A stretch of DNA of 64,000 bases, taken from Temnopleurus reevesii (Eukaryota > Echinodermata > Echinoidea > Temnopleuroida > Temnopleuridae). Positions within the stretch are counted from its first letter, which is position 1; every line of letters begins with the position of its first letter. The translations under genes and the position numbers were made by a program. The notes beneath the pieces are model-generated. The model was given only the letters and a program-made list of their open reading frames with translations. It ran no database searches and was not told where the DNA came from. The stretch spans positions 27,701 through 91,700 of the forward strand of contig BQKZ01001325.1 of the NCBI GenBank assembly GCA_036244855.1. Direction: 5' to 3'. Below, piece after piece: positions 1 through 59,190 of this stretch.

Positions 1-183
1 CTCTGGTTCCGAGAAATCAGGTCGCCAGAAGAAGCTGAGGGATGGAACTTATTCTCTTCAATCCGTTCTCTTGCTTCCTTCTCCGCAAGCTTCTTGTACA
101 CGTCAATAATTTGGTAATTTTTGGCTTGGTGTCCTTCTCTGACCAGTAACTTCTCCAAGAATTTCTGGTTCACTTCTTCCCAT
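1..183 (-). CDS. SLC9A (NHE): Na+/H+ exchanger exon E9 (partial, runs off the window)
   Basis: This exon encodes part of the cytoplasmic regulatory tail directly after the membrane domain of the exchanger. The acceptor CAG lies at 186-184 on the minus strand. The first base completes an Arg codon left by E8, then the frame reads WEEVNQKFLEKLLVREG and about 43 more codons to the window edge. The pattern (Trp, then KFLxKLLVR, then an acidic/basic helix xxYKKLAEKEA) matches the tail of SLC9A2/3-type exchangers, where this segment follows a His-rich GHHGHH stretch (E8 here). Residues 527-586 when counted from E1a. The rest of the tail and the stop codon lie outside the window. Confidence 0.85.
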
Positions 184-479
184 CTGTTGATGAATAAAGA
201 TTGAATGATTGAGATTGTCATCACATTTGACCTCTCAGGCCTAGGCCTGGCTATATTTTTTTTTTAAATCAAAATCTGTATTTTCAATCAGATTTTTCAG
301 AAAGAAAAGTCAGAAAAATACAAAATACTGCTTGTATTCATTGGATAGCTGTACTCTCCAGCTTTCCTTGAGAAGAGTGTTCAGTACAGTAGTGTCAAAA
401 GATGACTACGGTAAAAAAAAAAGGAAAGGATGTAGTTTAAAGGCGTGTATCATTCAAATTTGAATATTTACGCCAGAAG

Positions 480-640
480 AAGAAGAGAGGAAGAGGATCG
501 CCATCTTAACGTCTCCATCCGAAAGACGGTATGTGACCAGGCTTCGAACCCACAGGCAGGAACTAACCCCAAGTCTATGACTGTCCCAAACAGCTTGATT
601 TCAGGCGCACGCCACTAACGCCTCCGGGAATGAAAGGCTT
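480..640 (-). mobile_element. tRNA-derived SINE fragment (copied at ~2631..2791)
   Basis: Read on the minus strand, this stretch starts GGAGGCGTTAGTGGCG, resembling an A box, and later contains GGTTCGAAGCC, an excellent B box of a pol III promoter. There is no cloverleaf or anticodon stem that would make it a functional tRNA gene. It is repeated once because of the 2.15-kb duplication. Confidence 0.45.
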
Positions 641-984
641 TATTTTATATTAAATTCCTCAAAACTTGATACTTTTGTAGATAATATACTTAGGCCAAAG
701 GAAGGTTTGATTGGTATAACAAGATACAGAAATCTAAGTTAGGCAGGACAAAAATTGGGGGTTAGGACTCGAATGTTTGCCCGTTTTTCTGGTTGATAAG
801 TGCTTACAAGACCTAGAACTCACCCTAAAAAACTCATTTTCCCAACAGATACCAAGATAGAGGCATCTGAATATCCTTAAAATGTTTTTTTTTCTTTGAG
901 TAGGCTTGCTTTCCCATCTGCATTAGTGATTGCGATTGCAATATCAATTAGAAACTTGGTTTTGATGGGGAAAAAATGTAGGTT

Positions 985-1440
985 TGGCTTTTTTAAAGGG
1001 ATGACTGAATTCTATCCATTATTCTGAGCTTTTATAGTGATAACAGGTAGCATAGGATTCTGAATTGCACTGTATAACTCAAACTTGTGGTATAACAGTG
1101 GGATAACTGGACCATATATATATATATACTAGAAGCTTGGATCAGATAGCCAAAAAAATATAGCATTAGATTTTTTTAAAGAAGGGATTACTGAATTCTA
1201 TCTGTTATTATGAGCTTTTATAGTGATAACAGGTAGCATAGGATTCTGAATTGCACTGTAACACGCAAACTTGTGGTATAACAGTGGGATAACTGGACCA
1301 TATATATATATACTAGAAGCTTGGATCAGATAGCCAAAAAATATAGGTTCGGCTTTTTTTAAAAAGGGAGTACTGAATCCTATCTGGTATTCTGAGCTTT
1401 TATGGTGATAGCAGGTAGAAAAAAAATCTTAAATTGCACT
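985..1440. repeat. Tandem repeat, ~180-bp unit, three copies
   Basis: Three head-to-tail units contain the shared pieces GAGCTTTTATAGTGATAACA, GTGGGATAACTGGACC, an (AT)n run and CTAGAAGCTTGGATCAGATA. The third unit is shortened. The array is repeated near 3136..3591 in duplication copy 2, and a diverged single fragment sits near 39610. Confidence 0.8.
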
Positions 1441-1476
1441 CTCAAAACAGATTAACATAACTTTGATCACACTGAC

Positions 1477-1547
1477 CTTCCTTTGAGTGTATGGTGTCCA
1501 TGATGACCAATAATGTCCTCCACTCCCGACATGAGATGACCGTTGAA
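1477..1547 (-). CDS. SLC9A (NHE): Na+/H+ exchanger exon E8 (copy 1)
   Basis: A 71-nt exon preceded by CCACAG and followed by donor GTCAGT. It starts in phase 0 after E7 and ends with two bases of an Arg codon that E9 completes. It reads FNGHLMSGVEDI, then IGHHGHHTLKG (residues 503-525). The xGVEDIxGHHGHH block is a hallmark of the juxtamembrane cytoplasmic tail in SLC9A1-5 exchangers, and the phases on both sides fit E7 and E9. A second copy at 3698..3628 differs by one silent base and is probably an assembly duplicate. Confidence 0.88.
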
Positions 1548-2258
1548 CTGTGGACAAACAAATACATAGTTAAAGACATTATCACACATTATGATTCTGT
1601 TGTTAAAAAAAATAACTAATCGAGCTGTATGACCAAAGCATTATGTGTACTATGTCTCATACTGATATTTAAGGATTGAATGCATCATTATGTAAAGCTC
1701 TGAACCTGTTTGGAATTAACCTCCATATGAATTTTATGTATTACCAACCAACTACAAGTATACTACTCAAAGAAAGTTAAGGATTACTCCAATTATTATT
1801 ACTCTGATTATTGTAATTGTATCACTTCACTATGGGCTCACTTTTATGGATGCGTAGTGGAGCAAGAGATATCATACAGCAAATGAAATCACGCATAAGT
1901 GAACATGATTAAAGTCTGTTTGATAACACCCAAGAAAGTGTCATTGAGGGGTATTGCCAAAGAAATAAAACCCCATATAAAATTTATATACAGCTCTGAC
2001 GGTAATAAATAATTTTAATTGGCGGAGTGTATCTAGATGACATCTTGTTTTGGAAGCTAATGCACATGTTATGTCTATAATTCCGAATAATTTCCCATTT
2101 TTTTAAACTTTATTATCATCAGAGGTATTTTGTGCTGCATCAAAGAAGCACCCAAACAAAGTGAACAACAAACATGATTTTTCAATTTAAAACCTGGCAA
2201 ACATGAACACACATAAACAAAATGCCTGTATCCGGAATTTTTATGGCGGAGTGTATAA

Positions 2259-2259
2259 N
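2259..2259. other. Single n: sequence join between duplicated blocks
   Basis: Sequence right of the n restarts at the equivalent of position 109, inside exon E9. Two overlapping pieces that should have been merged appear to have been placed end to end. Confidence 0.75.
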
Positions 2260-2334
2260 ATTTGGTAATTTTTGGCTTGGTGTCCTTCTCTGACCAGTAA
2301 CTTCTCCAAGAATTTCTGGTTCACTTCTTCCCAT
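2260..2334 (-). pseudogene. Truncated second copy of exon E9
   Basis: Contains the E9 acceptor and about 24 codons beginning WEEVNQKFL, cut by the n at 2259. It cannot form a full exon and is most simply the overlapping end of a sequence piece. Confidence 0.75.
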
Positions 2335-3627
2335 CTGTTGATGAATAAAGATTGAAAGATTGAGATTGTCATCACATTTGACCTCTCAGGCCTAGGCCTG
2401 GCTATATTTTTTTTTTAAATCAAAATCTGTATTTTCAATCAGATTTTTCAGAAAGAAAAGTCAGAAAAATACAAAATACTGCTTGTATTCATTGGATAGC
2501 TGTACTCTCCAGCTTTCCTTGAGAAGAGTGTTCAGTACAGTAGTGTCAAAAGATGACTACGGTAAAAAAAAAAGGAAAGGATGTAGTTTAAAGGCGTGTA
2601 TCATTCAAATTTGAATATTTACGCCAGAAGAAGAAGAGAGGAAGAGGATCGCCATCTTAACGTCTCCATCCGAAAGACGGTATGTGACCAGGCTTCGAAC
2701 CCACAGGCAGGAACTAACCCCAAGTCTATGACTGTCCCAAACAGCTTGATTTCAGGCGCACGCCACTAACGCCTCCGGGAATGAAAGGCTTTATTTTATA
2801 TTAAATTCCTCAAAACTTGATACTTTTGTAGATAATATACTTAGGCCAAAGGAAGGTTTGATTGGTATAACAAGATACAGAAATCTAAGTTAGGCAGGAC
2901 AAAAATTGGGGGTTAGGACTCGAATGTTTGCCCGTTTTTCTGGTTGATAAGTGCTTACAAGACCTAGAACTCACCCTAAAAAACTCATTTTCCCAACAGA
3001 TACCAAGATAGAGGCATCTGAATATCCTTAAAATGTTTTTTTTTCTTTGAGTAGGCTTGCTTTCCCATCTGCATTAGTGATTGCGATTGCAATATCAATT
3101 AGAAACTTGGTTTTGATGGGGAAAAAATGTAGGTTTGGCTTTTTTAAAGGGATGACTGAATTCTATCCATTATTCTGAGCTTTTATAGTGATAACAGGTA
3201 GCATAGGATTCTGAATTGCACTGTATAACTCAAACTTGTGGTATAACAGTGGGATAACTGGACCATATATATATATATACTAGAAGCTTGGATCAGATAG
3301 CCAAAAAAATATAGCATTAGATTTTTTTAAAGAAGGGATTACTGAATTCTATCTGTTATTATGAGCTTTTATAGTGATAACAGGTAGCATAGGATTCTGA
3401 ATTGCACTGTAACACGCAAACTTGTGGTATAACAGTGGGATAACTGGACCATATATATATATACTAGAAGCTTGGATCAGATAGCCAAAAAATATAGGTT
3501 CGGCTTTTTTTAAAAAGGGAGTACTGAATCCTATCTGGTATTCTGAGCTTTTATGGTGATAGCAGGTAGAAAAAAAATCTTAAATTGCACTCTCAAAACA
3601 GATTAACATAACTTTGATCACACTGAC

Positions 3628-3698
3628 CTTCCTTTGAGTGTGTGGTGTCCATGATGACCAATAATGTCCTCCACTCCCGACATGAGATGACCGTTGAA
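3628..3698 (-). CDS. SLC9A (NHE): Na+/H+ exchanger exon E8 (copy 2)
   Basis: Identical to the E8 at 1547..1477 except for one silent His codon change (CAC for CAT), with the same acceptor and GTCAGT donor. If both copies were real and both were spliced in, 71 nt would be added and the frame would shift, so only one can be used per transcript. It is probably the same exon from the other haplotype. Confidence 0.6.
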
Positions 3699-4453
3699 CT
3701 GTGGACAAACAAATACATAGTTAAAGACATTATCACACATTATGATTCTGTTGTTAACAAAAATAACTAATCAAGCAGTATGACCAAAGCATTATGTGTA
3801 CTATGTCTCATACTGATATTTAAGGATTGAATGCATCATTATGTAAAGCTCTGAACCTGTTTGGAATTAACCTCCATATGAATTTTATGTATTACCAACC
3901 AACTACAAGTATACTACTCAAAGAAAGTTAAGGATTACTCCAATTATTATTACTCTGATTATTGTAATTGTATCACTTCACTATGGGCTCACTTTTATGG
4001 ATGCGTAGTGGAGCAAGAGATATCATACAGCAAATGAAATCACGCATAAGTGAACATGATTAAAGTCTGTTTGATAACACCCAAGAAAGTGTCATTGAGG
4101 GGTATTGCCAAAGAAATAAAACCCCATATAAAATTTATATACAGCTCTGACGGTAATAAATAATTTTAATTGGCGGAGTGTATCTAGATGACATCTTGTT
4201 TTGGAAGCTAATGCACATGTTATGTCTATAATTCCGAATAATTTCCCATTTTTTTAAACTTTATTATCATCAGAGGTATTTTGTGCTGCATCAAAGAAGC
4301 ACCCAAACAAAGTGAACAACAAACATGATTTTTCAATTTAAAACCTGGCAAACATGCACACACATATTAAACAAAATGCCTGTATCCGGAATTTTTATGG
4401 CGGAGTGTATATTCCATAAAATCTTTCTTTCAACAATCACTTTTCTTCCTTAC
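3699..4453. other. Intron 7 of the exchanger
   Basis: AT-rich noncoding sequence between E8 copy 2 and E7. No gene or strong element is visible beyond the edge of the 2.15-kb duplication. Confidence 0.65.
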
Positions 4454-4543
4454 CCTCTCATAAATTTCTTCATTCATCGTCGGTTTTCTCTTCTCTGCTT
4501 TCTGAATGTGTAAAAGGTTGACCAGAGGCTTGATGGTAATACC
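4454..4543 (-). CDS. SLC9A (NHE): Na+/H+ exchanger exon E7
   Basis: A 90-nt, 30-codon exon in phase 0 at both ends: acceptor AAACAG, donor GTAAGG. It reads GITIKPLVNLLHIQK and then a basic stretch ending NEEIYER (residues 473-502). GxTIKPLVxxL is the conserved end of the last membrane helix and start of the tail in SLC9A1-5 exchangers. Three partial copies of its acceptor and first two-thirds lie upstream at 5094..4653, so this is the only copy with a donor. Confidence 0.9.
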
Positions 4544-4652
4544 CTGTTTCCGAAGACAAAATAAAAGTACATACATGTAAATGAAAAAAAGTCAAGTCAT
4601 TTCCTTTGGAACTTTTGGAGCTACAAAAGAAGTAAAATATATGATTTTTTTT

Positions 4653-5094
4653 TCTTTTCCGCTTCTCAGCTTTCTGTATGTGTAAAAAGTTGACCAGAGG
4701 CTTGATCGTGATACCCTATTTGCGAAAAATAGAATAAATGTGCATAAATGTTAATCTTGATTTTTTAAAATCCTAATCACTTCCTCTACAGCTAGTATAA
4801 ATTGGAGCTAAAAAGAAGTAGAAAATATGAATAACAATTTTTTTCTTTTCCGCTTCGCTGTTTTCTGAATGTGTAAAATGTTGATGAGAGGCTTGATGGT
4901 AATAAGTTGTTTGCGAAAGCAAAACAAAAGTGCAGACATGTAATCTTGATTTTAAAAATCCTTGTCACTTCCCCAAGAACCATAAATTGGAGCTACAAAA
5001 TAAGTAAAATATATGAATAACTCCTTTTTTTTCTTTTCTGCTTCTCAGCTTTCTGAATGCGTAAAAGGTTGACCAAAGTCTTGATAGTGATACC
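4653..5094 (-). repeat. Array of three partial copies of exon E7 (acceptor + 5' part)
   Basis: Copies start at 5094, 4906 and 4715, about 170-190 bp apart and continuing the register of true E7 (4543). Each keeps about 20 codons of open frame: GITIKTLVNLLRIQK at 5094, ITIKPLINILHIQK at 4906 and GITIKPLVNFLHIQK at 4715. The 5094 and 4715 copies have acceptors (AACAG, AATAG); the 4906 copy has lost its AG. None has the E7 donor. The copy at 4715 differs from E7 at five synonymous and one non-synonymous codon in that stretch. Confidence 0.85.
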
Positions 5095-6097: not shown

Positions 6098-6300
6098 CTG
6101 TATGAAGACGGTGAACATGATGATAACAACAGTCGTAGTGAAAAATATTGGCTTAGCACCGATCACTTTCGAGCATAATAGCGCCACCAATGAGAAAGCG
6201 ATAGCACCACGAATACCGCCATACATCATGATGAACTGGGAACGGGGGTTTATTTTGAAGAGTCGGAAACGATTCAAAATCGTGACCTGGAAAAACACAC
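6098..6300 (-). CDS. SLC9A (NHE): Na+/H+ exchanger exon E6
   Basis: A 203-nt exon: acceptor TTTGCAG, donor GTAAGA. Two bases complete the Gly codon begun in E5, then 67 codons follow, ending in phase 0 before E7. It reads VFFQVTILNRFRLFKI, then QFIMMYGGIRGAIAFSL (the invariant YGGLRGAIAFSL signature of the family, residues 431-442), then a final hydrophobic helix ending FTVFIQ. An internal CCAG|GTCACG could be mistaken for the acceptor, but only the upstream CAG keeps phase with E5 and restores the family sequence RAIGVFF. Confidence 0.93.
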
Positions 6301-7093: not shown

Positions 7094-7314
7094 CTATCGC
7101 CCTATAGACGGAGCAGAAGAGAAGAGTGAAGAGAACAAAAGCGGTGTCCCACTGATGTGACTCCTTATTGAGAGAGGTTGTCCCAAGGAAGATGAAGATG
7201 ATGGTTTCGCTCATACTGCTTAACATTTTCAGGAAGTATTTGATGGTTGTATGGGATTTTTGCGAGATGTTCTGCTCTACGAAAGGCTTCATGAACATGG
7301 AACAAGTGACGATT
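7094..7314 (-). CDS. SLC9A (NHE): Na+/H+ exchanger exon E5
   Basis: A 221-nt exon: acceptor TTTGCAG, donor GTGAGT. Its first base completes the Ala codon from E4, then [41 protein letters not shown] and a later helix FVLFTLLFCSVYRAI follow (residues 332-404). SETIIFIFLG followed by a Trp-containing loop and SVYRAIG is typical of SLC9A2/3. Six upstream partial copies of its acceptor and first 34-42 codons are stacked at 8490..7415; only this copy has the second half and a donor. Confidence 0.93.
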
Positions 7315-7414
7315 CTGCAAACAAAAAAGAACAAAAATAGGAATAAATTGTAATAATTTTCACATTAACTGATTCAAATATTGATTCAATTTCAGGATTA
7401 TGATTGTTGTTTTG

Positions 7415-8490
7415 CTCATACTGCTCAACATTTTCAGGAAGTATTTGATTGTCGTGTGAGATTTCTGTGAGATGTTCTGTTCTACGAAAGGCTTCATGAA
7501 CATGGAACATGTGACGATCCTAGAAAACAGAAGAAATTAAGATCAAATGTAATTGTTTCTATTATTCATTAAACCTTTAGATTACATTCTGTAGGAAGAT
7601 GAAGATTATTGTTGCGCTCATACTGCTCAACATTTTCAGGAAGTATTTGATTGTGGTGTGGGACTTCTGCGAGATGTTCTGCTCTACGAAGGGCTTCATG
7701 AACATGGAACATGTGACGATTCTGGAAAAAGAAAAAAAAATAGATTTGAATCAATTCTCAGATTGATTACACTTATTCATTCAGAAGATGAAGATGATTG
7801 CTTCGCTCATACTGCTCAACATTTTTAGGAAGTACTTGATGGTCGTGTGAGATTTCTGTGAGATGTTCTGCTCTATGAAGGGCTTCATGAACATGGAACA
7901 AGTGACGATTCTGTAAATAAGCAAAAATTATGATAAATTTTAGTAATTTTCAAATTTACTGATTCAATTGATTATGGATTTGCTCATACTGCTCAAAATT
8001 TTTAGGAAGTATTTGATTGTGGTGTGAGAATTCTGCGAGATGTTCTGCTCTACGAAGGGCTTCATGAATATAGAAGAAGTGACGATTCTGGAAAAAAGAA
8101 CAAAATTATAATTAGTTTGAATAATTTTTGCATTTATTGATTCAATTAATTCACTTTCAAAGAAAGATGATGATTATGGATCCATTTACACTGCTAACAA
8201 TCTTTAGGAGGAACTTGATGGTCGTGTGGGATTTCTGCGAGATGTTCTGCTCTACGAATGGCTTCATGAACATAGGACAAGTGACAATTCTCGAAAAAGA
8301 ATTAAAATTGTGATTCATTTGAGTAATATCCACAATTACTGATTCAATAGTAGATTCAATTTCAGAATTATGATTATTGTTTTGTCTCATACTGCTCAAC
8401 ATTTTTAGGAAGTATTTGATTGTGGTGTGGGACTTTTGCGAGATGTTCTGCTCGACGAAGGGCTTCATGAACATGGAACAAGTAACAATT
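7415..8490 (-). repeat. Array of six partial copies of exon E5 (acceptor + 5' half)
   Basis: Copies start at 8490, 8289, 8087, 7910, 7721 and 7519, followed by real E5 at 7314 (spacings about 177-205 bp). Every copy has an AG acceptor after a pyrimidine-rich tract and stays open in the E5 frame for at least 33 codons. Copy 8490 differs from E5 at ten codons in the first 34, all synonymous. Homology fades after LSSM..IIFIF and no E5-type donor follows. Adjacent copies can read through the intervening sequence (8474..8157 is open across two copies). Confidence 0.9.
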
Positions 8491-8499
8491 CTGGAAAAA

Positions 8500-10200
8500 G
8501 GATAAAATATGATAGATTTTTATGATTTTTATGATTAACCCTGAAGAAGATGAAGATAATGGTTTAGCTACAGCTGCTTAACATCTGCACGAAAATTCTT
8601 GAGAGTAGGGGGATATTTTTTAATTTAAAAGGTACCATTTGCATGTAGGTACATACTTTTAAAATATTTACAGTTATGATTCACGGGAATACAAATGCTA
8701 AATGTACTCTATTTCACACAAATTCATTTTTTTTTTCTCAAGATGACAGTTGTGAAGAAAATCTTCACTGTTTGTCTTCATGAATTTCTTCCTGATCATA
8801 TAATGATACTTTTATTTGAAATGAAAAAATATAGAATTACTATAAAAGCTCATTCCACTTTTTTCAATTATGCTTGATGTATTCATTATCATATTGAAAG
8901 GAAAATGACTGAAACTGTTACTTCCTTGTACGAAAGACTTATTGGACAATTATCAAACAAATACATCTTATTTAATGACATCCTGCACTTTGTGGCTAAC
9001 CTACAAAAACCACAATGAAACAATAAAATATCATAAAGAATATAGTTTCTTGACAAGCAATAAATGTCTAAGTAATTCATCAAAATTATTTTAAGCAAAA
9101 TTGGTATCAAACTCTCAATCTGACTTTCAATCAAAACTTGTCAAAAAGTAATAAAAAAATAAATACATTTGTGGGTTACTCTTGTTGGCATAGTAATATG
9201 ATATCAAAATCCAATTGGAATAAAGGATGGGATTTCCCATTAATGATTAATGATCTCCAAGCAGTATGTTTGTATATATGTAAAGGAATGTTGTATATTC
9301 TATTATGAATCACTTTCAGTTTTAATAATGGCAAACACAAAGTTTAGAAGTGGAGCTATCATCGCTGCAGGATAGGCAGTGAATACGTCCAACATAAATA
9401 GAAAAACTTCACACAAGAAAATTACATAATCAAAGTAAGAGATGAAAATAAACTAATATAAATTACAATAACAAACCAAGACTGAACTTTTGCTATATAG
9501 TGCAAAGAAAATGAACAGGATTTCAAATGGTTTCATAAAAAATATAATTCATGAGGACCCCCTTCCCCCCCCAAATAAATTAGATAAGCTTTTGATGGCC
9601 ACTAACAGCAAAGTACGGTTATCACGAATGCTACACAATTAACGATGGTAGTAGCAGAGGCATATATAATTTCTCCCAGCAGGGCTATGCATAAGGTATA
9701 TCCTGTTTATACATATAGCTAACAAAATCACCTTATGCTACATTACCGGATCTAGGGCTCTTGTCAATGAGGAAGGAAATATATCTAAAAAATAACATGC
9801 TACCTACTTGGCATACATATATCTTTCAAACCTTGCTGATATGTAATTGTATGTAATATGCATTTGGAACTGATACAATGTTCAGAAATACCTCTAATGA
9901 AACGATAAAGGAAACAAAATTATTTAGATGCCCTCAAACAACTGACCCTCTGAAAATGGCCAAGCCTGTATTCTTTGTACATTCTTGGAGATTTCTACAT
10001 GTGTAGAATGTATTCTAGTCTATTTCTGGTGTAAATTTGCATAATGTTACATATGACAGTAAATTATATTTGAAAAAAACAAACAGTAAAATTGTAAGAA
10101 AACATGCGAATCATGACGTTTGAATTCATTTTTACAAAACCTGAAAAGTCATTTTCAGACATTTCTACTTGGAATCTGTTCTTTCTCCCCCCCCAAATAA
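8500..10200. other. Intron 4 of the exchanger, distal part
   Basis: AT-rich sequence with no gene visible. It has a short poly-C stretch near 9560 and scattered A/T runs. Confidence 0.6.
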
Positions 10201-16180: not shown

Positions 16181-16184
16181 TTAT

Positions 16185-17227
16185 GCAAGTATACTGGAGA
16201 GAGATAGGCTCAATAACTCAAACCTTGCTGGTGAACTTCGTGATGAAAGTGTGGAGTAAATTATGGCAATTTAAACAAGCAAATCGATTTTCAGTACTTA
16301 CGCAAGGATACTGGAAAGTGTCAGCATCTCGGCTATGATGTACGAGAGATAAGCCATGACGAAAACAAAGATGGGCTCGATGACATGGACCTTATAGATG
16401 AACTTTGTGATGAAAGCGGTAAAGGTTGTTTCCAGTACTTACGCAAGGATACTGGAAAGCGTCAACATCTCGGCTATGATGTACGAGAGATTTACCCATG
16501 AAGAAAACGAAGATGGGTTCGATGATGCGAACCTTAGAAGTGAACTTTGCGATGAAAGTCGTAAGAAATTATGGATATTTTAATGGAAAAGGTTGATTTT
16601 CAGTACTTACGCGGGGATACTGGATAGCGTCAACATCTCGGCTATGATATACGACAGATACGCCGTGACAAAGACGAAGATGGGCTCGATGACGCGGACC
16701 TTGTAGGTGAACTTATTGATGAAAGCATGAAATAAATATGGAAACTTGAATGAGAGGGTTGATTTTTCAGCACTTACGCAAGGATACTGGAAAGCATCAA
16801 CATCTCGGCTATGATATACGAGAGATAGGTCATGGCGAAAACGAAGATGGGCTCGATGACGCAAACATTGTAGGTGAACTTAGTGATGAAAGCGGAGAGT
16901 GATTGACGGAATTTCGGGTGAGAAAGTTGATTTTTCAGTACTTACGCAAGGATACTGGAAAGCGTTAACATCTCTGCTATGATGTATGACAGATAGACTA
17001 TGACAAAAACGAAGATGGGCTCGATGACGCGGACCTTATGAACTTTGTGATGAAAGCGGTAAGTAAATTACGGAAACTCGAAAGGAAAAGGTTGATTTTC
17101 AGTACTTACGCAAGGATACTGGAAAGCGTCAACATCTCGGCTATGATGTACGAGAGATAGGCCATGACGAAAACGAAGATGGGCTCGATGACGCGCACCT
17201 TGTTGGTGTACTTCGTGATGAAAGCGG
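16185..17227 (-). repeat. Array of seven partial copies of exon E4 (3' half + donor)
   Basis: Copies run 17227..17110, 17059..16946, 16895..16778, 16726..16611, 16559..16443, 16419..16302 and a decayed 16250..16185. Spacing is ~164-168 bp for the first five, then shorter. Each carries the last ~118 nt of E4 ([30 protein letters not shown] region) plus ~50 bp of intron. The first six keep a GC|GTAAGT donor. Copy 1 differs from E4 at ten synonymous and one non-synonymous codon. Copy 2 has a 4-bp deletion near its start; copy 7 has lost the GT. All lack the E4 acceptor and 5' half. Confidence 0.9.
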
Positions 17228-17277
17228 TAAGTAAATTATGGAAACTCGAAAGGAAAAGGTTGATTTTCAGTACTTAC

Positions 17278-17534
17278 GCAAGGATACTGGAAAGCGTCAA
17301 CATCTCGGCTATGATGTATGACAGATACGCCATGACAAAGACAAAGATAGGTTCGATGACGCGGACCTTGTAGGTGTACTTTGTGATGAAAGCGGTGATG
17401 AATCCCATCACGAGGCCGATTGCGACTCCGCCGAGCGCCACCACGAAGAAGGAGATGAACCCAAAGATGATGTCCTGCGCTACCAGGTGCTCACCGCCAA
17501 TCTCGTTGAACGATTCAAAGACACGGTACAGTAC
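17278..17534 (-). CDS. SLC9A (NHE): Na+/H+ exchanger exon E4
   Basis: A 257-nt exon: acceptor ATGTAG, donor GTAAGT. It starts in phase 0 with VLYRVFESFNEIGG, passes through the helix FGFISFFVVALGGVAIGLVMG, then TKYTYKVRVIEP and [22 protein letters not shown], and ends with two bases of an Ala codon that E5 completes (residues 246-331). VLYxVFESF directly after NDAVTV (E3) and EMLxLSxILA are strong SLC9A2/3 signatures. Seven copies of its 3' half follow downstream in intron 4. Confidence 0.94.
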
Positions 17535-26504: not shown

Positions 26505-26807
26505 TTAGTAGTCCGCCCATGGACACGCCCCACAGCGACAGGCCGATGGTGAAGGCATTGATGAGCGTCCCGAAGACCGCAAACATCAGGATACTCCCGA
26601 TGTTGTTCCAAAAGGCCGCCTGGGGCATGAAGTAACCAGCCTCCATCATGATGGGAGGGAGGAGGTAGAGGAAGAAGACATGGGCCTCAAGCTCCGGGTT
26701 GAACGCCGACGATGGGTTGAGGAGAAAGAGGGCGCCGATGATAAAACCGATCGCGACGAGGAGGCAGCTTTCGGGGACATACTTGGGCAGCGGTGAGAAG
26801 TGGAACA
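26505..26807 (-). CDS. SLC9A (NHE): Na+/H+ exchanger exon E2
   Basis: A 303-nt exon: acceptor CCGCAG, donor GTATGT. Two bases complete a Leu codon from either first exon, 100 codons follow, and one base is left for E3. It reads FHFSPLPKYVPESCLLVAIG, then FFLYLLPPIMMEAGYFMP and GTLINAFTIGLSLWG (residues 92-191). VPES and LPPI..xAGYFMP are SLC9A signatures; the latter is the amiloride-sensitive segment. Here Glu146 replaces the Asp seen in human NHE1-3 (LDAGYF). Upstream are three decayed copies of the 5' part. Confidence 0.94.
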
Positions 26808-26913: not shown

Positions 26914-27355
26914 GTTGAATAGAAAGATACCGCCGATTATGAAACTGATCGCGACGAGGAGGCAGCTTTCAAGGACATACTTGGGCAGAGGTGAGAAGTG
27001 GAACACTGTCAATGGGAGGTTGAAAAAATTGGAAGATTAAGTAGAGATAAATCATCATGTTATAAATTTTGAAAACTTTGAGAAAGAAAATAAAGAACAG
27101 GAATTCATAACTAAATGATTCTAATGTTTTAAAAAAAAGAAAGCTCTGATGATGAAACTGATCGATCGCGACGAGGAAGCAGCTTTCGGGGACATACTTG
27201 GGCAGCGATGAGAAGTGGAACACTGCGGATGGAAGGTTAAGAAGAAGACCGATTAAGTAGATATTAATCATACCATCTAATATGTAAAAAGATAAAGAAC
27301 TTAAATTAATAATAATTTTCTGATTATAGTTGAAAAGAAAGAGGGCGCCGATAAT
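26914..27355 (-). repeat. Array of partial copies of exon E2 (acceptor + 5' part)
   Basis: Copy i (27005..26914) has acceptor TTGACAG and ~30 open codons (FHFSPLPKYVLESC.. to GIFLFN) with several replacements. Copy ii (27222..~27150) has acceptor CCGCAG and FHFSSLPKYVPESCFLVAI, then a 4-bp duplication (ATCGATCG) that shifts the frame. Copy iii is a ~25-bp scrap near 27335..27355. None has a donor. These copies look more decayed than those of E4 and E5. Confidence 0.82.
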
Positions 27356-28445
27356 TGGTCACTGGATTCCGAATTCAAAAACCAAATTCACCCATTCGTC
27401 ACTGGCTTCCACCAGTGCCTAATTGGAACCTGGGTAAAAGTTCCAGAGGAAATTACTGTCACGTCGCTCTTAACTCACTATCATTAATTGTAATTACATG
27501 TATGGCTGGATTGCATGCACACTTTTAACCTATAGTCAAACGGCCTTTTATATTTGAGTTACTTAGAAATATGAGTCCTGTTTACTCAGTCTACAAAGAA
27601 GGGAAGTACACTATAAACTATTTTGTGTTTCGACATTCATGAACCCAAATTCCAACTTTCCTAAAAATCAGACAACCAACCGTTTTGTGCAATGTTATAA
27701 ACCATTGTTTGCAGATTACACGTATACATGTAGGGCATAATACCAACCTCTATTTCAAAGGTTTCATTTTACAACCTGAAACTATCATGTCTTGGAACAA
27801 GAAACTTATGTATTGATTATTCAGTCATATACAAATCACATGAAATAATCTTTTCTCTACAGCTTGCACGTTTTCAAAACATGTAGATTGTAATTAGTTT
27901 CCATCAAAAAATGCACATACATGTACATTTAGAAAAAAATCATTAAGCTCTAGAAAGACAGGATACATCTCATTTTATTTCTGATGCATGATTTAGTACA
28001 AGTAGCAAAGTCATTCATTTTCCATGACACATAATATTCATCAAAAAATGAGTTGATGCGTGTTGAACTTTGCCAATTCAATATCTAGAGATTAATTGTT
28101 TCTCAAGAATCTTATTCTTCCTTTTTGTACTGTTTAGAGATGGACTTGTATATTTTTTTCATGATTATAATATCCTTGATTTATTAATATCTTTGCTGAT
28201 TTTCATCTTTTTTGCTTGATGCATAACCAGATTTTACGGGGAAATAAATCCTAATAACATTTCTTCATCATGAAAGTAAAATCTTCTTTTCTGAGTTCTA
28301 AACTTCCACGCGAAGCTCCATGTAGGTGATCAAGGCAAACTCGATTTGAAATAAGTAGTAATGTTCATGATGAACAGAGTTGTAATCTCACCACTACACT
28401 CTGGCCAAGAATCAAATTAATCCATTGATTAAAATGATTGAACCA

Positions 28446-35009: not shown

Positions 35010-36620
35010 ATATAATTGCGGCGTAAGATGGGTTAACGAAGAGTTTCGTATCATCTGTTATAAAAAGCAAGAGAACACAGAGAGATGCCTGCACAGAAAG
35101 CTCCATTTATGAATGCTTCTATTCCAAATCAAACCTCAGCCAAGATCATTGGATATGTTGAGCATATTATAACACAGGACCATGCCAACTTTTCATTCAA
35201 TTTGCAACAAGTTAAAGCAAATATTTTCCAGAATCATGACTCAGATGCATAATTGCAGTGTAAGATGGGTAAACGAAAAATGTCCTATCATCCGATACAA
35301 AAAGCAAGATAACATAGAGAGCGCCATTCATAAATGAAATATCCGCTTATTCCAAATCAAACCTAAAGGGGGTATCTCACCGGGCTTGAAACTAGTTCGC
35401 GACAAGTTCGCGACTCCAGATTTTGCTAGTTGCAGAGACGTCTCCGCGACGTCTCCGAGACGTCTCCTGAAAATTACGGAGTCTCCAAAGAGTCNGGTCA
35501 TAAGTAGCTTGCTATCAAACTCAAAGCTATTCCAGATGTGATATGAGAAGTATGATATATGTCTTTTAATGTGACACAATGACAATGTGGTGGTAGAGTT
35601 ATAGCATTTAGACATGAGTACCTCTATGCTACTCGAACCTCTCATGATCTAAATATACAAATCTAAAAAAAGTATCTGATGCATGTATACTGTACGTGAA
35701 GGTGACAAAAGACGGCTCAGTAATAGGGCAGTCACACTAACAGACTGATCCAGCCCTGCTCTCAAACCACGTCAACAAAATTGTAATTAGTACTGTCTTA
35801 ATACTCAGTGTATAATTACGGTGTAAAATCAGTACGAAAAGCAAGAGAGCACAGAGATGCTTGCACTGAGAGCACCATTCATTCATGAAATATCTGCTTA
35901 TTCCGAATCAAACCTAAACCAGGAATCAGTGGAAATGCTGAATATAACTGACACAGGTCCATGCCAACGTTTTATTGAATTTGCAACAAGCTAAAACAAA
36001 ATATTTTCCTGAATCAAGGCCCAGAATCGTGGCGTAAGATCGGTAAACTAGGAGTTTCCTTTCATCTAATACAAAAAGCGAGAGAACACACAGAGATGCT
36101 TGCATAGAGAACTCCATCCATGAATGAAATATCCGCTTATTCCAAGTCAAACATAAGACAACAATTAATGCAAATGTTGTATATAACTGTCACACAGCTC
36201 CCTGCCAACTTTTCATTCCAAGTGCAACTGACAAAAAACAATATTTTACTGCATCAAGGCTCAGATGTATACTTGCTGTGGAAGATGGTTAAACAAGCAG
36301 TTTCCTATCATATGATATAAAAAAAAAACAAGTGAGCTCAGAGAGACGTTTGCACAAAGAGCTCCATCCATTGGAATATCCACTTATTCCAAATCAAACC
36401 TAAGCGAACAATTAATGCAAATGTTGAATATAACTGTAACACAGGTCCATGCCAACTTTTCATTTAATTTGCAACAAGCTAAAACAAAATATTTTCCAGA
36501 ATCAAGGCCCAGATGCATAATTGCGGCGTAAGATCGGTAAACGAAAAATGTCTTATCATCCGATACAAAAAGCAAGATAACATAGAGAGCACCATTCATA
36601 AGTGAAATATCCGCATATTC
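35010..36620. repeat. ~236-249-bp tandem repeat array, about six units
   Basis: The unit marker AAAAAGCAAGAGAACACAGA (and variants) occurs at ~35061, 35297, 35837, 36073, 36322 and 36567. Other shared pieces are ATTCCAAATCAAACC and CATGCCAACTTTTCATT. The gap between the second and third marker contains the n at 35495, which probably disrupts the array. ORFs on both strands follow the repeat and are not genes. Confidence 0.82.
35495..35495. other. Single n: sequence join
   Basis: Right of the n, 35496..~35700 resembles 34297..34700 but lacks the MITE found there. It is probably a diverged haplotype, or a repeat unit, joined here. Confidence 0.6.
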
Positions 36621-46680: not shown

Positions 46681-47712
46681 TATATATGGATCAATTTTGA
46701 CGCCGTTTGCAGATCCACTAACGGCCTCAAAATGTTCTACTATATTAACGACTTCTTTGACGCCGTTTGCGATTCCACAAACGGCGTCAAAATGTACGTC
46801 TACATATGACACATTTTGACGCCGTTTACCAATCCACTAACGGCCTTAAAATGTTCTACTATATTACCGACTTCTTTGACGCCGTTTGCGATTCCATTAA
46901 CGGCGTCAAAATGTACGTCTACATGTGACACATTTTGACGCCGTTTGCCAATCCACTAACGGCCTCAAAATGTTCTACTATAATACCGACTTCTTTGACG
47001 CCGTTTGTGAATCCACGAACGGCCTCAAAATTGTGAGTTTCATAAAGTTGCGGGGTTTTTTTTACGCCGTTTGCCAAATCCACGAACGGCCTCAAAATGG
47101 TAAGTATATTAACATGCGGTTCTTTGACGCCGTTTGCGAATCCACGAACGGCCTCAAAATGGTCAGTATAATAAAAGTGCGTCTTCTTGGACGCCGTTTG
47201 CGAATCCACGAACGGCCTCAAAATGGTCAGTTTAATAAAATTACGTTTTCTTTAATTGACGCCGTTTGCCAAATCCACGAACGGCCTCAAAATGTCCAGG
47301 ATAATAAACTTAGGTTCTTTGACGCCGTTTGCAAATCCACAAACGGCCTCAAAATAGTCGGTTTAATGAAATTGCGGTTTCTTTGACGCTGGTTGCCAAA
47401 TCCACGAACGGCCTCAAAATGTCCAGCATATAAAATTGCGGTTCTTTGAAGCCGTTTGCGAATCCACGAACGGCCTCAAAATGGTCAGTTTAATAAAATT
47501 GCGTTTTCTTTAACGCCGTTTGCCAAATCCACAAACGGCCTCAAAATGTCCAGTATATTAAATTAATTGCGTTTTCTTTAACGCCGTTTGCCAAATCCAC
47601 GAACGGCCTCAAATTATGTTCTACATATAATTGCGATTCTTTAACGCAGTTTGCGAATCCATGAAATAGTGAATTCTTTGACGCCGTTTGCAAATCCACT
47701 AACGGCCTGAAA
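46681..47712. repeat. Array of ~17 regularly spaced hairpins (GACGCCGTT ... AACGGCCTC)
   Basis: Units recur every ~60-66 bp. A conserved 36-bp core, TTTGACGCCGTTTGC then GAATCCACGAAC then GGCCTCAAAAT, folds back on itself (TTTGAcGCCGTT against AACGGCcTCAAA). In the second unit the arms TTTGACGCCGTTTG and CAAACGGCGTCAAA are a perfect 14-bp inverted repeat with an 8-nt loop. Spacers of ~25-30 bp are related but more variable. Long ORFs on both strands simply follow the repeat. It lies in intron 1, ~1.2-2.2 kb downstream of E1a. Confidence 0.92.
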
Positions 47713-58943: not shown

Positions 58944-59026
58944 CGATGGAGACAATACATTCCTGTACTTTGGCTATGGTAGCAACATGTTGAAAGCCAG
59001 AATCCATGCCCACAATCGTACCGCAA
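58944..59026 (+). pseudogene. Partial copy of a GGCT-B exon (acceptor + 5' part)
   Basis: Acceptor GGTGCAG, then DGDNTFLYFGYGSNMLKARI and about seven more codons, ending abruptly at a T run (59027..59038) with no donor. It differs from the real exon at 59082 by two silent and three replacement changes over ~27 codons (I for L, A for V, R for P). This is the same kind of truncated acceptor-side copy seen for exchanger E2, E5 and E7. Confidence 0.8.
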
Positions 59027-59081
59027 TTTTTTTTTTTTAATTTACACTGAAATATCATTTATTTCATCTTCTCTGGAGCAG

Positions 59082-59190
59082 TGATGGAGACAATACATTC
59101 CTTTACTTTGGCTATGGTAGCAACATGCTGAAAGCCAGACTCCATGTCCACAATCCTACCGCAGAGCTGGTCGGTCCAGCTAAACTGGAG
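59082..59190 (+). CDS. GGCT: GGCT-B exon with the YGSN motif
   Basis: A 109-nt exon: acceptor GGAGCAG, donor GTATGT. One base completes an upstream codon, then 36 codons in phase 0: DGDNTFLYFGYGSNMLKARL, HVHNPTAELVGPAKLE. It aligns with GGCT-A residues 8-42. There is no in-frame Met before the motif, and a stop lies ~50 nt upstream in the same frame, so an earlier coding exon carrying the start must exist. I did not find it between 58141 and 58943. Confidence 0.9.

Follow-up and report, generated by a model that had tools for sequence, protein, structure and literature searches.

The E5 half-copy array

The window analysed here is a 64,000-nt stretch (G000:C1324:27701-91700, contig BQKZ01001325.1) of the 558-Mb genome of the sea urchin Temnopleurus reevesii. 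Its minus strand carries an SLC9A Na+/H+ exchanger gene in which six half copies of exon E5, each with a splice acceptor and an open frame, are arranged in tandem in the intron upstream of the intact exon. The copies have diverged mostly at synonymous positions, and the codon comparisons given below support protein-level filtering while they diverged. The explanation favoured here, to which we assign a probability of about 0.47, is recurrent exchange of the half copies with the working exon at the end of the array, a process that filters out replacements.

The working exon E5 (7094..7314, minus strand; 221 nt, phase 2 to phase 1) is the final unit of the array and encodes a part of an SLC9A Na+/H+ exchanger that is collinear with NHE3 (7x2u) and with echinoid nhx-9-like proteins. 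Half copies 1 to 6, each consisting of an acceptor and 98 nt of exon-like sequence on the minus strand, are located at 8393..8490, 8192..8289, 7990..8087, 7813..7910, 7624..7721 and 7422..7519, respectively, and are designated below by their first exon-like bases (8490, 8289, 8087, 7910, 7721 and 7519). The spacings within the array are 201, 202, 177, 189, 202 and 205 nt. The original prediction had described six acceptor-bearing half copies at 177-205-nt spacing, all retaining the AG and an open E5 frame, and these were found again: in all six the AG is kept and the E5 frame is open over 33 codons with no indels. Pyrimidine tracts accompany the six intact AGs, all of which lie within 1.2 kb. 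The E5 frame also stays open from half copy 1 across its intron into half copy 2 (8490-8184; the spacing of 201 equals 3 x 67). A seventh copy is a decayed remnant comprising the tail part only (8542..8583, minus strand).

Conservation within the array is tight to about AGCAGTATGAG, i.e. over the 98 nt and slightly further into the exon. Alignable homology to E5 stops between nt 118 and 130 of 221 in all six half copies, and no relics of the second half of the exon were found within the window at E < 0.1. Since all six copies lose their homology inside one 13-nt interval and no such relic was detected, the founder of the array was probably already truncated, and the half copies would never have been complete exons. 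It had been suggested that they are remnants of once-complete alternative exons, each of which has lost its second half, and past purifying selection on such exons would indeed leave a synonymous pattern. However, independent losses at one and the same place are unlikely and the donor-side mirror arrays described below would require another account, which makes this origin barely credible. The absence of the second half and its donor from the copies, also part of the original prediction, agrees with the point at which the homology stops, with the reservation that every copy has a weak in-phase GT at +98.

Synonymous divergence of the E5 units

Copy 8490 differs from E5 by 10 synonymous (S) and no replacement (N) differences across 33 codons, as had been predicted. 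The chance of a synonymous outcome per random substitution in this segment of E5 is 0.22, so ten out of ten corresponds to p = 2.7e-7. Copies 7721 and 7519 differ from E5 by 8 S / 0 N and 9 S / 0 N, and copies 7910, 8087 and 8289 by 9 S / 1 N, 9 S / 4 N and 9.5 S / 5.5 N, respectively. The claim that the copies had diverged only synonymously thus holds for three of the six (8490, 7721 and 7519) and fails for the other three, which carry one, four and about 5.5 replacements. By our own count, 12 codons vary among the former three, in each case synonymously (0.22^12 ~ 1e-8). The peptide of 33 residues is identical to that of E5 in three of the six copies and one residue off in a fourth.

For the array as a whole, the mean difference is 29% at third positions and 2.7% at first and second positions, the total is 54.5 S / 10.5 N, and the synonymous depth is 0.44-0.50 per site. 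The intron parts of the units show a 19% apparent difference, which according to simulation maps to about 0.27 substitutions per site, the distance measure being one that saturates (shuffled introns already give 26%). A comparison of synonymous with replacement change had been proposed with the original prediction and, run here as S and N counts, gave an N/S of 0.19 for the E5 copies; together with the contrast between codon positions and the ten synonymous changes out of ten, this supports protein-level filtering during the divergence of this array.

The motif KPF is present in all seven E5 units and SSM in six of them, and the residue Q of ISQ is common to Diadema and Acanthaster. A mixture of species as the source of the units is unlikely because all seven carry KPF, which was found in none of the seven other proteins compared. 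The sharing of KPF and SSM would fit their spread through the array, and duplication after those changes would fit equally.

An assembly artefact, with haplotypes or repeats set in tandem, is a highly improbable source of the units. The window does contain one redundancy (2,152 bp at 99.6% around a single N at 2259), but the seven units have no N, they differ by 0.3-0.5 at synonymous sites, which is much more than we would expect of alleles, and arrays occur in two polarities and at many loci.

Half-copy arrays of both polarities

The working exon E4 (17278..17534, minus strand; 257 nt, phase 0 to phase 2) lies upstream of E5. On its downstream side the 3′ half of E4 recurs in seven copies, each with a donor, which form a tandem array with a ~168-nt unit (16183..17276, minus strand) and mirror the E5 array at the opposite end of the same intron. 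The original prediction mentioned neither this mirror array nor the arrays at other loci. Their GTs are located at 17109, 16945, 16777, 16610, 16442, 16301 and, in a degenerate copy, 16184; copies 16945 and 16442 contain indels, and no acceptors are evident in the E4 half copies as judged by eye. The six scored copies show 52 S / 18 N, or an N/S of 0.35; in a separate count, copy 16442 was omitted because of its insertion.

The phenomenon is real, unusual and not confined to E5: twelve further stretches of the genome carry half-copy arrays, in both polarities. The exon matches listed from profile searches number 20 for ABC, 6 for exchanger, 137 for kinase and 126 for kinesin proteins. Ten small regions were picked because one part of a profile matched repeatedly, and half-copy arrays were present in all ten, although two of these regions (L077 and L078) are separated by only about 2.5 kb of the same contig and may be duplicates. 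One array belongs to a MAPK exon (L076, G000:C537:42900-44150) and consists of three acceptor copies; at a kinesin-II-like exon (L075, G000:C142:72050-73350), four acceptor copies lie upstream and a single donor copy downstream. Donor copies also accompany a NEK-like and an MLK-like kinase exon, and other kinesin exons have arrays as well; except for the profile families, these gene labels are our reading of the sequences. Self-comparison revealed repeats over the match in four of the 20 ABC loci (L023, L027, L030 and L034). Of these, L027 and L034 proved to be half-copy arrays with acceptors, so that at least two of the 20 ABC-domain matches have one. Among the kinase loci, repeats over the match were seen in two of 30 (L056 and L068). 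At L068 (G000:C1418:20967-21696) a kinase exon segment is repeated in tandem three times at ~255-bp spacing, with two copies listed in a 650-codon open frame.

By our own sums, the 41 scored half copies of 16 arrays differ from their working exons by 286 S / 95 N, where the neutral expectation is 2.7-4.5 N per S, and about half that for a neutral copy beside a constrained exon. Two of the 41 (L081 and L082) overrun the fetched stretch, with only 31 and 36 nt covered. Copies below the alignment threshold were left out of the scoring, namely the degenerate E4 copy at 16184, the decayed E5 copy at 8583-8542 and possible E2 relics near 27400. Stops and indels are present in some half copies. To judge from the sequences, the basic event is a tandem duplication across an exon-intron boundary: tandem segments of about 150-240 bp span one such boundary, which results in a chain of half exons, each bearing an acceptor or, where the chain lies downstream of the exon, a donor, beside one intact exon.

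Proposed exchange between the half copies and the working exon

According to the favoured model, a sequence that sits as a silent half copy on one chromosome has in many cases recently served, or will come to serve, as the 5′ part of the working exon on another. While a unit occupied the working slot, replacements, frameshifts and splice-site losses would be purged and synonymous changes would pass, and the array would thereby store synonymous diversity without expression of the half copies. Within the window, such exchange would be most strongly exemplified by the E4 array on the donor side and the E5 array on the acceptor side.

The model is favoured by the occurrence of the same architecture in both polarities and by the depletion of replacements in the E4 donor copies, which have no evident acceptor. 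Distances between the E5 exon parts gave a Mantel r of 0.61 (p = 0.02) against the upstream intron and of -0.08 against the downstream tail, as expected of mosaic units. Incompatible pairs of third-position sites make up 22 of 45 in E5, 8 of 15 in E4 and 7 of 15 in the kinesin array; the no-recombination null has a mean of 13-19%, and a proportion of 0.49 or more has a p of about 0.1 under it. In the MAPK array, the three 97-nt introns are identical, yet the exon halves fall into two types, between which 126 nt hold 6-7 S and 2 N differences. The working exon is of the same type as the copy closest to it, and the two differ by 2 S in 141 nt. The differences between the MAPK exon types are mostly synonymous, with an M-I to I-M swap.

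Forward simulation of very frequent exchange with a selected end unit gave N/S values of 0.14-0.22, compared to 1.4-2.1 with little exchange, and with seven units, cN = 60 and a single-locus synonymous diversity of 0.05 the simulated N/S was 0.19, which is the value of E5. Simulated pool exchange lowers N/S at cN 11-60 (0.28 at cN 40), and simulations with low exchange showed no consistent drop.

Several results weigh against the exchange model. Mantel correlations restricted to third positions in E5 are weaker, with 0.15 for the following intron (p = 0.32) and 0.38 for the preceding one (p = 0.11), and recombination tests on E5 gave no signal (neighbour similarity score, p = 0.86; phi, p = 0.44). 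Exchange between neighbours only still leaves a simulated N/S of 0.66 at cN 40. The synonymous depth of E5 exceeds the 0.27 per site simulated for k = 7, and two-unit arrays reach 0.14-0.52 per site compared to 0.095 simulated (k = 2, strong exchange). Synonymous divergence does not rise with unit number (Spearman 0.08, p = 0.76, n = 16), whereas a simulated pool predicts a rise, and it is larger than the apparent intron divergence (0.27 vs 0.14, p = 0.004), an excess that the model does not predict, although intron distances saturate near 0.26. Moreover, the kinase and kinesin arrays, 11 of the 16, came to light through repeated protein-profile matches, which biases them towards conserved copies, and the arrays without that bias, E4 and E5 aside, are near neutral, with N/S values of 1.12 for exon E2 and 0.78 for exon E7 of the same gene, 1.0 for a gamma-glutamylcyclotransferase-like (GGCT) exon in the window, and 0.87 and 1.16 for L027 and L034. 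In the seven unbiased arrays N/S falls with unit number, although not significantly (Spearman -0.59, p = 0.17).

The near-neutral arrays (N/S 0.8-1.2) and the stops and indels seen in some copies are what would be expected if the half copies were neutral relics of old tandem duplications, their synonymous pattern being due to chance or to the choice of example. This is very unlikely, as it is contradicted both by E5, with its ten synonymous differences out of ten and not one replacement among the 12 codons at which three of the copies differ, and by the 52 S / 18 N of E4. A constraint at the DNA or RNA level on the half copies themselves, which would need codon-level conservation without splicing into mRNA, would agree with the depletion of replacements in several genes and both polarities, and the exchange model fails to give the synonymous depth of several two-unit arrays. 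The near-neutral copies of E2, E7, GGCT, L027 and L034 speak against such a constraint, and we know of no process that reads the codons of unspliced intronic sequence, so we regard it as unlikely.

Possible splicing of the half copies

In each of the seven E5 units there is a GT exactly 98 nt past the acceptor (GCA/GTATGA in E5 and five copies, GCA/GTGTAA in copy 8289), which has the same phase as the E5 donor and is the sole GT beyond nt 60 that can be reached in an open frame in all six copies. The half copies might therefore be alternative mini-exons of 98 nt with the donor GCA/GTATGA, spliced between E4 and E6 in place of E5 and yielding an exchanger minus 41 residues, with direct selection on each copy. 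The fitting phase, the frame open up to the GT in all six copies and the fact that the half copies diverge from one another shortly past this site are consistent with such use. On the other hand, by our own count GCA/GTATGA matches only 4 of 9 positions of the consensus MAG/GTRAGT, compared to 8 of 9 for the real donors of E5 and the kinesin exon, and is thus below the ordinary GTs (5-7 of 9) of these and other half copies. Weak GTs of 5-7 of 9 are found in the E5, kinesin and MAPK half copies alike, so that having one sets none of these arrays apart; the idea that sites of this strength are lacking from the kinesin and MAPK arrays was dropped in view of their GTs of 5-6 of 9. According to the NHE3 alignment, the product would lack parts of two membrane helices, given what we take to be the helix limits in NHE3, and choosing among near-identical peptides from the copies would add little. 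As for E4, an acceptor is not evident in its copies, and indels occur in two of the six that were scored. Altogether, mini-exons of this kind are distinctly unlikely.

Cassette insertion of the half copies at +98 would shift the frame (98 mod 3 = 2), and the frame-keeping GT at +90 (AAT/GTTGAG) is present and open in four of the six copies and scores below 5 of 9, so that in-frame cassette insertion appears unlikely. A further variant, in which the E4-E5 intron would be a paired mini-exon system with a 98-nt E5′ (GTATGAG donor), with or without a 101-nt E4′, spliced in frame from E3 to E6 to give shortened exchangers, is very unlikely; if true, it would mean direct protein-level selection on each copy and would make half-exon arrays a new kind of alternative exon across urchin genes. 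Direct splicing use of the E5 half copies thus appears to be the less likely reading, and the suggestion that they are used in a way that splicing models miss is weakened, given that the common in-phase GT is weaker than ordinary GTs and that the donor-side E4 copies are depleted of replacements too.

The original prediction also considered a ladder of decoy acceptors regulating the splicing of E5. Six intact AGs with pyrimidine tracts inside 1.2 kb would suit this role, but a decoy needs an acceptor and no particular amino-acid sequence, the copies at E4 bear donors, unrelated exons have arrays, and one E7 copy has lost its AG, all of which makes a decoy ladder highly improbable.

Other repeats in the window

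Working exon E7 (4454..4543, minus strand) is accompanied by three half copies with a 188-nt unit (4640..5094, minus strand; starts at 5094, 4906, where the AG is lost, and 4715), which show 9 S / 7 N. Two acceptor-bearing half copies of E2 (26915..27222, minus strand; starts at 27222 and 27005) stand beside the working exon (26505..26807, minus strand, the end being read by eye) and show 8.5 S / 9.5 N. The GGCT-like exon, whose gene name is presumed from the look of the sequence, belongs to a separate gene on the plus strand and has one acceptor-bearing half copy (58944..59030; working exon at 59082-59190) with 2 S / 2 N. No half copies were noticed at E6, the exon next to E5 (6098..6300, minus strand, phase-1 acceptor). 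Further tandem arrays, with 119-322-bp units (46695-47613) and 247-bp units (35850-36542), were not connected with any exon here; Tandem Repeats Finder lists arrays with units of 119-247 bp.

The host gene

A composite of exons E4-E7 aligns to the NHE3 chain 7x2u over 244 residues with E = 7.5e-75. The 527-residue composite is 87% identical to an nhx-9-like protein of Lytechinus pictus and 87% identical to that of Strongylocentrotus purpuratus, and is gap-free through E4-E7 in both comparisons. By these alignments, the host gene is a sea-urchin SLC9A Na+/H+ exchanger (nhx-9/NHE3-like) on the minus strand, and full-form E5 is its normal exon.

Close paralogues were considered as donors of diverged exons and rejected, the 14 matches of the composite in its own genome, taken as the best candidates, all being on this contig. 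There is one further exchanger-family profile match, on contig C339 (L040), which is too unlike for a composite match at E <= 1e-5. At this second exchanger-family locus (G000:C339:33446-33727) the match overlaps long tandem repeats with about 70% identity. The 2,152-bp direct repeat mentioned above (109-4411), the two parts of which flank the single N, is probably assembly redundancy and duplicates a candidate E8 region.

Relation to known systems and implications

Gene conversion can lead to concerted evolution, in which copies without a function retain a functional-like sequence by exchange with a functional copy. Unlike in the classic form, the urchin unit is a half exon within one gene, there is one working slot at the end of the array, and the synonymous sites are diverse. 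The depletion of replacements that goes with concerted evolution is found in E5 and E4 and is weak in E2, E7, GGCT, L027 and L034. At most, the array works like a concerted-evolution array; we do not file it as a member of that class, its diversity not growing with the number of units. Minisatellites, or variable-number tandem repeats, also form arrays in introns, and the window likewise holds 119-247-bp tandem units not tied to exons, but the E5 and E4 units differ from these in that each spans a splice site together with half of a coding exon.

Mutually exclusive exon clusters of the Dscam type are another comparison. Their units have both an acceptor and a donor and encode differing proteins, whereas the E5 copies have acceptors and share only the 4-of-9 in-phase GT, the E4 copies have donors and no evident acceptor, and the E5 copies encode nearly one and the same peptide. 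With tandem exon duplication and mutually exclusive clusters (PMC9013439), the likeness lies in tandem exon-like units with acceptors in one intron, and the difference in half exons without the second half and a normal donor, in near-identical peptides, and in E4 copies with no evident acceptor. In the potato RdRp gene, one tandem duplication across an intron-exon boundary with an exonic GTAAG donor gave rise to a new exon and intron, supported by 106 RNA reads (PMC4974935). There, too, the duplicated segment crosses an intron-exon boundary and the splice signals are inherited, whereas the urchin arrays have up to seven copies, weak donor-like sites and donor-side mirrors, occur in several genes, and are seen here at the DNA level. 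Tandem duplication across an intron-exon boundary, described in potato as intron gain, is the closest known phenomenon; in the urchin it takes the form of multi-copy arrays, in both polarities and in several genes, and the E4-E5 intron shows a strong silent-site signature at each of its ends. No paper on half-exon arrays in urchins was found in the literature searched.

Replicate arrays such as these allow one to measure how often duplication creates splice sites and whether the latter are used. If the copies are used after all, they would be a new form of alternative exon. If, on the contrary, the exchange model is true, purifying selection leaks into non-coding DNA, a ratio of replacement to synonymous substitution rates (dN/dS) below 1 would be no proof that exon-like copies are expressed, and the annotation of genes in such genomes could be led astray.
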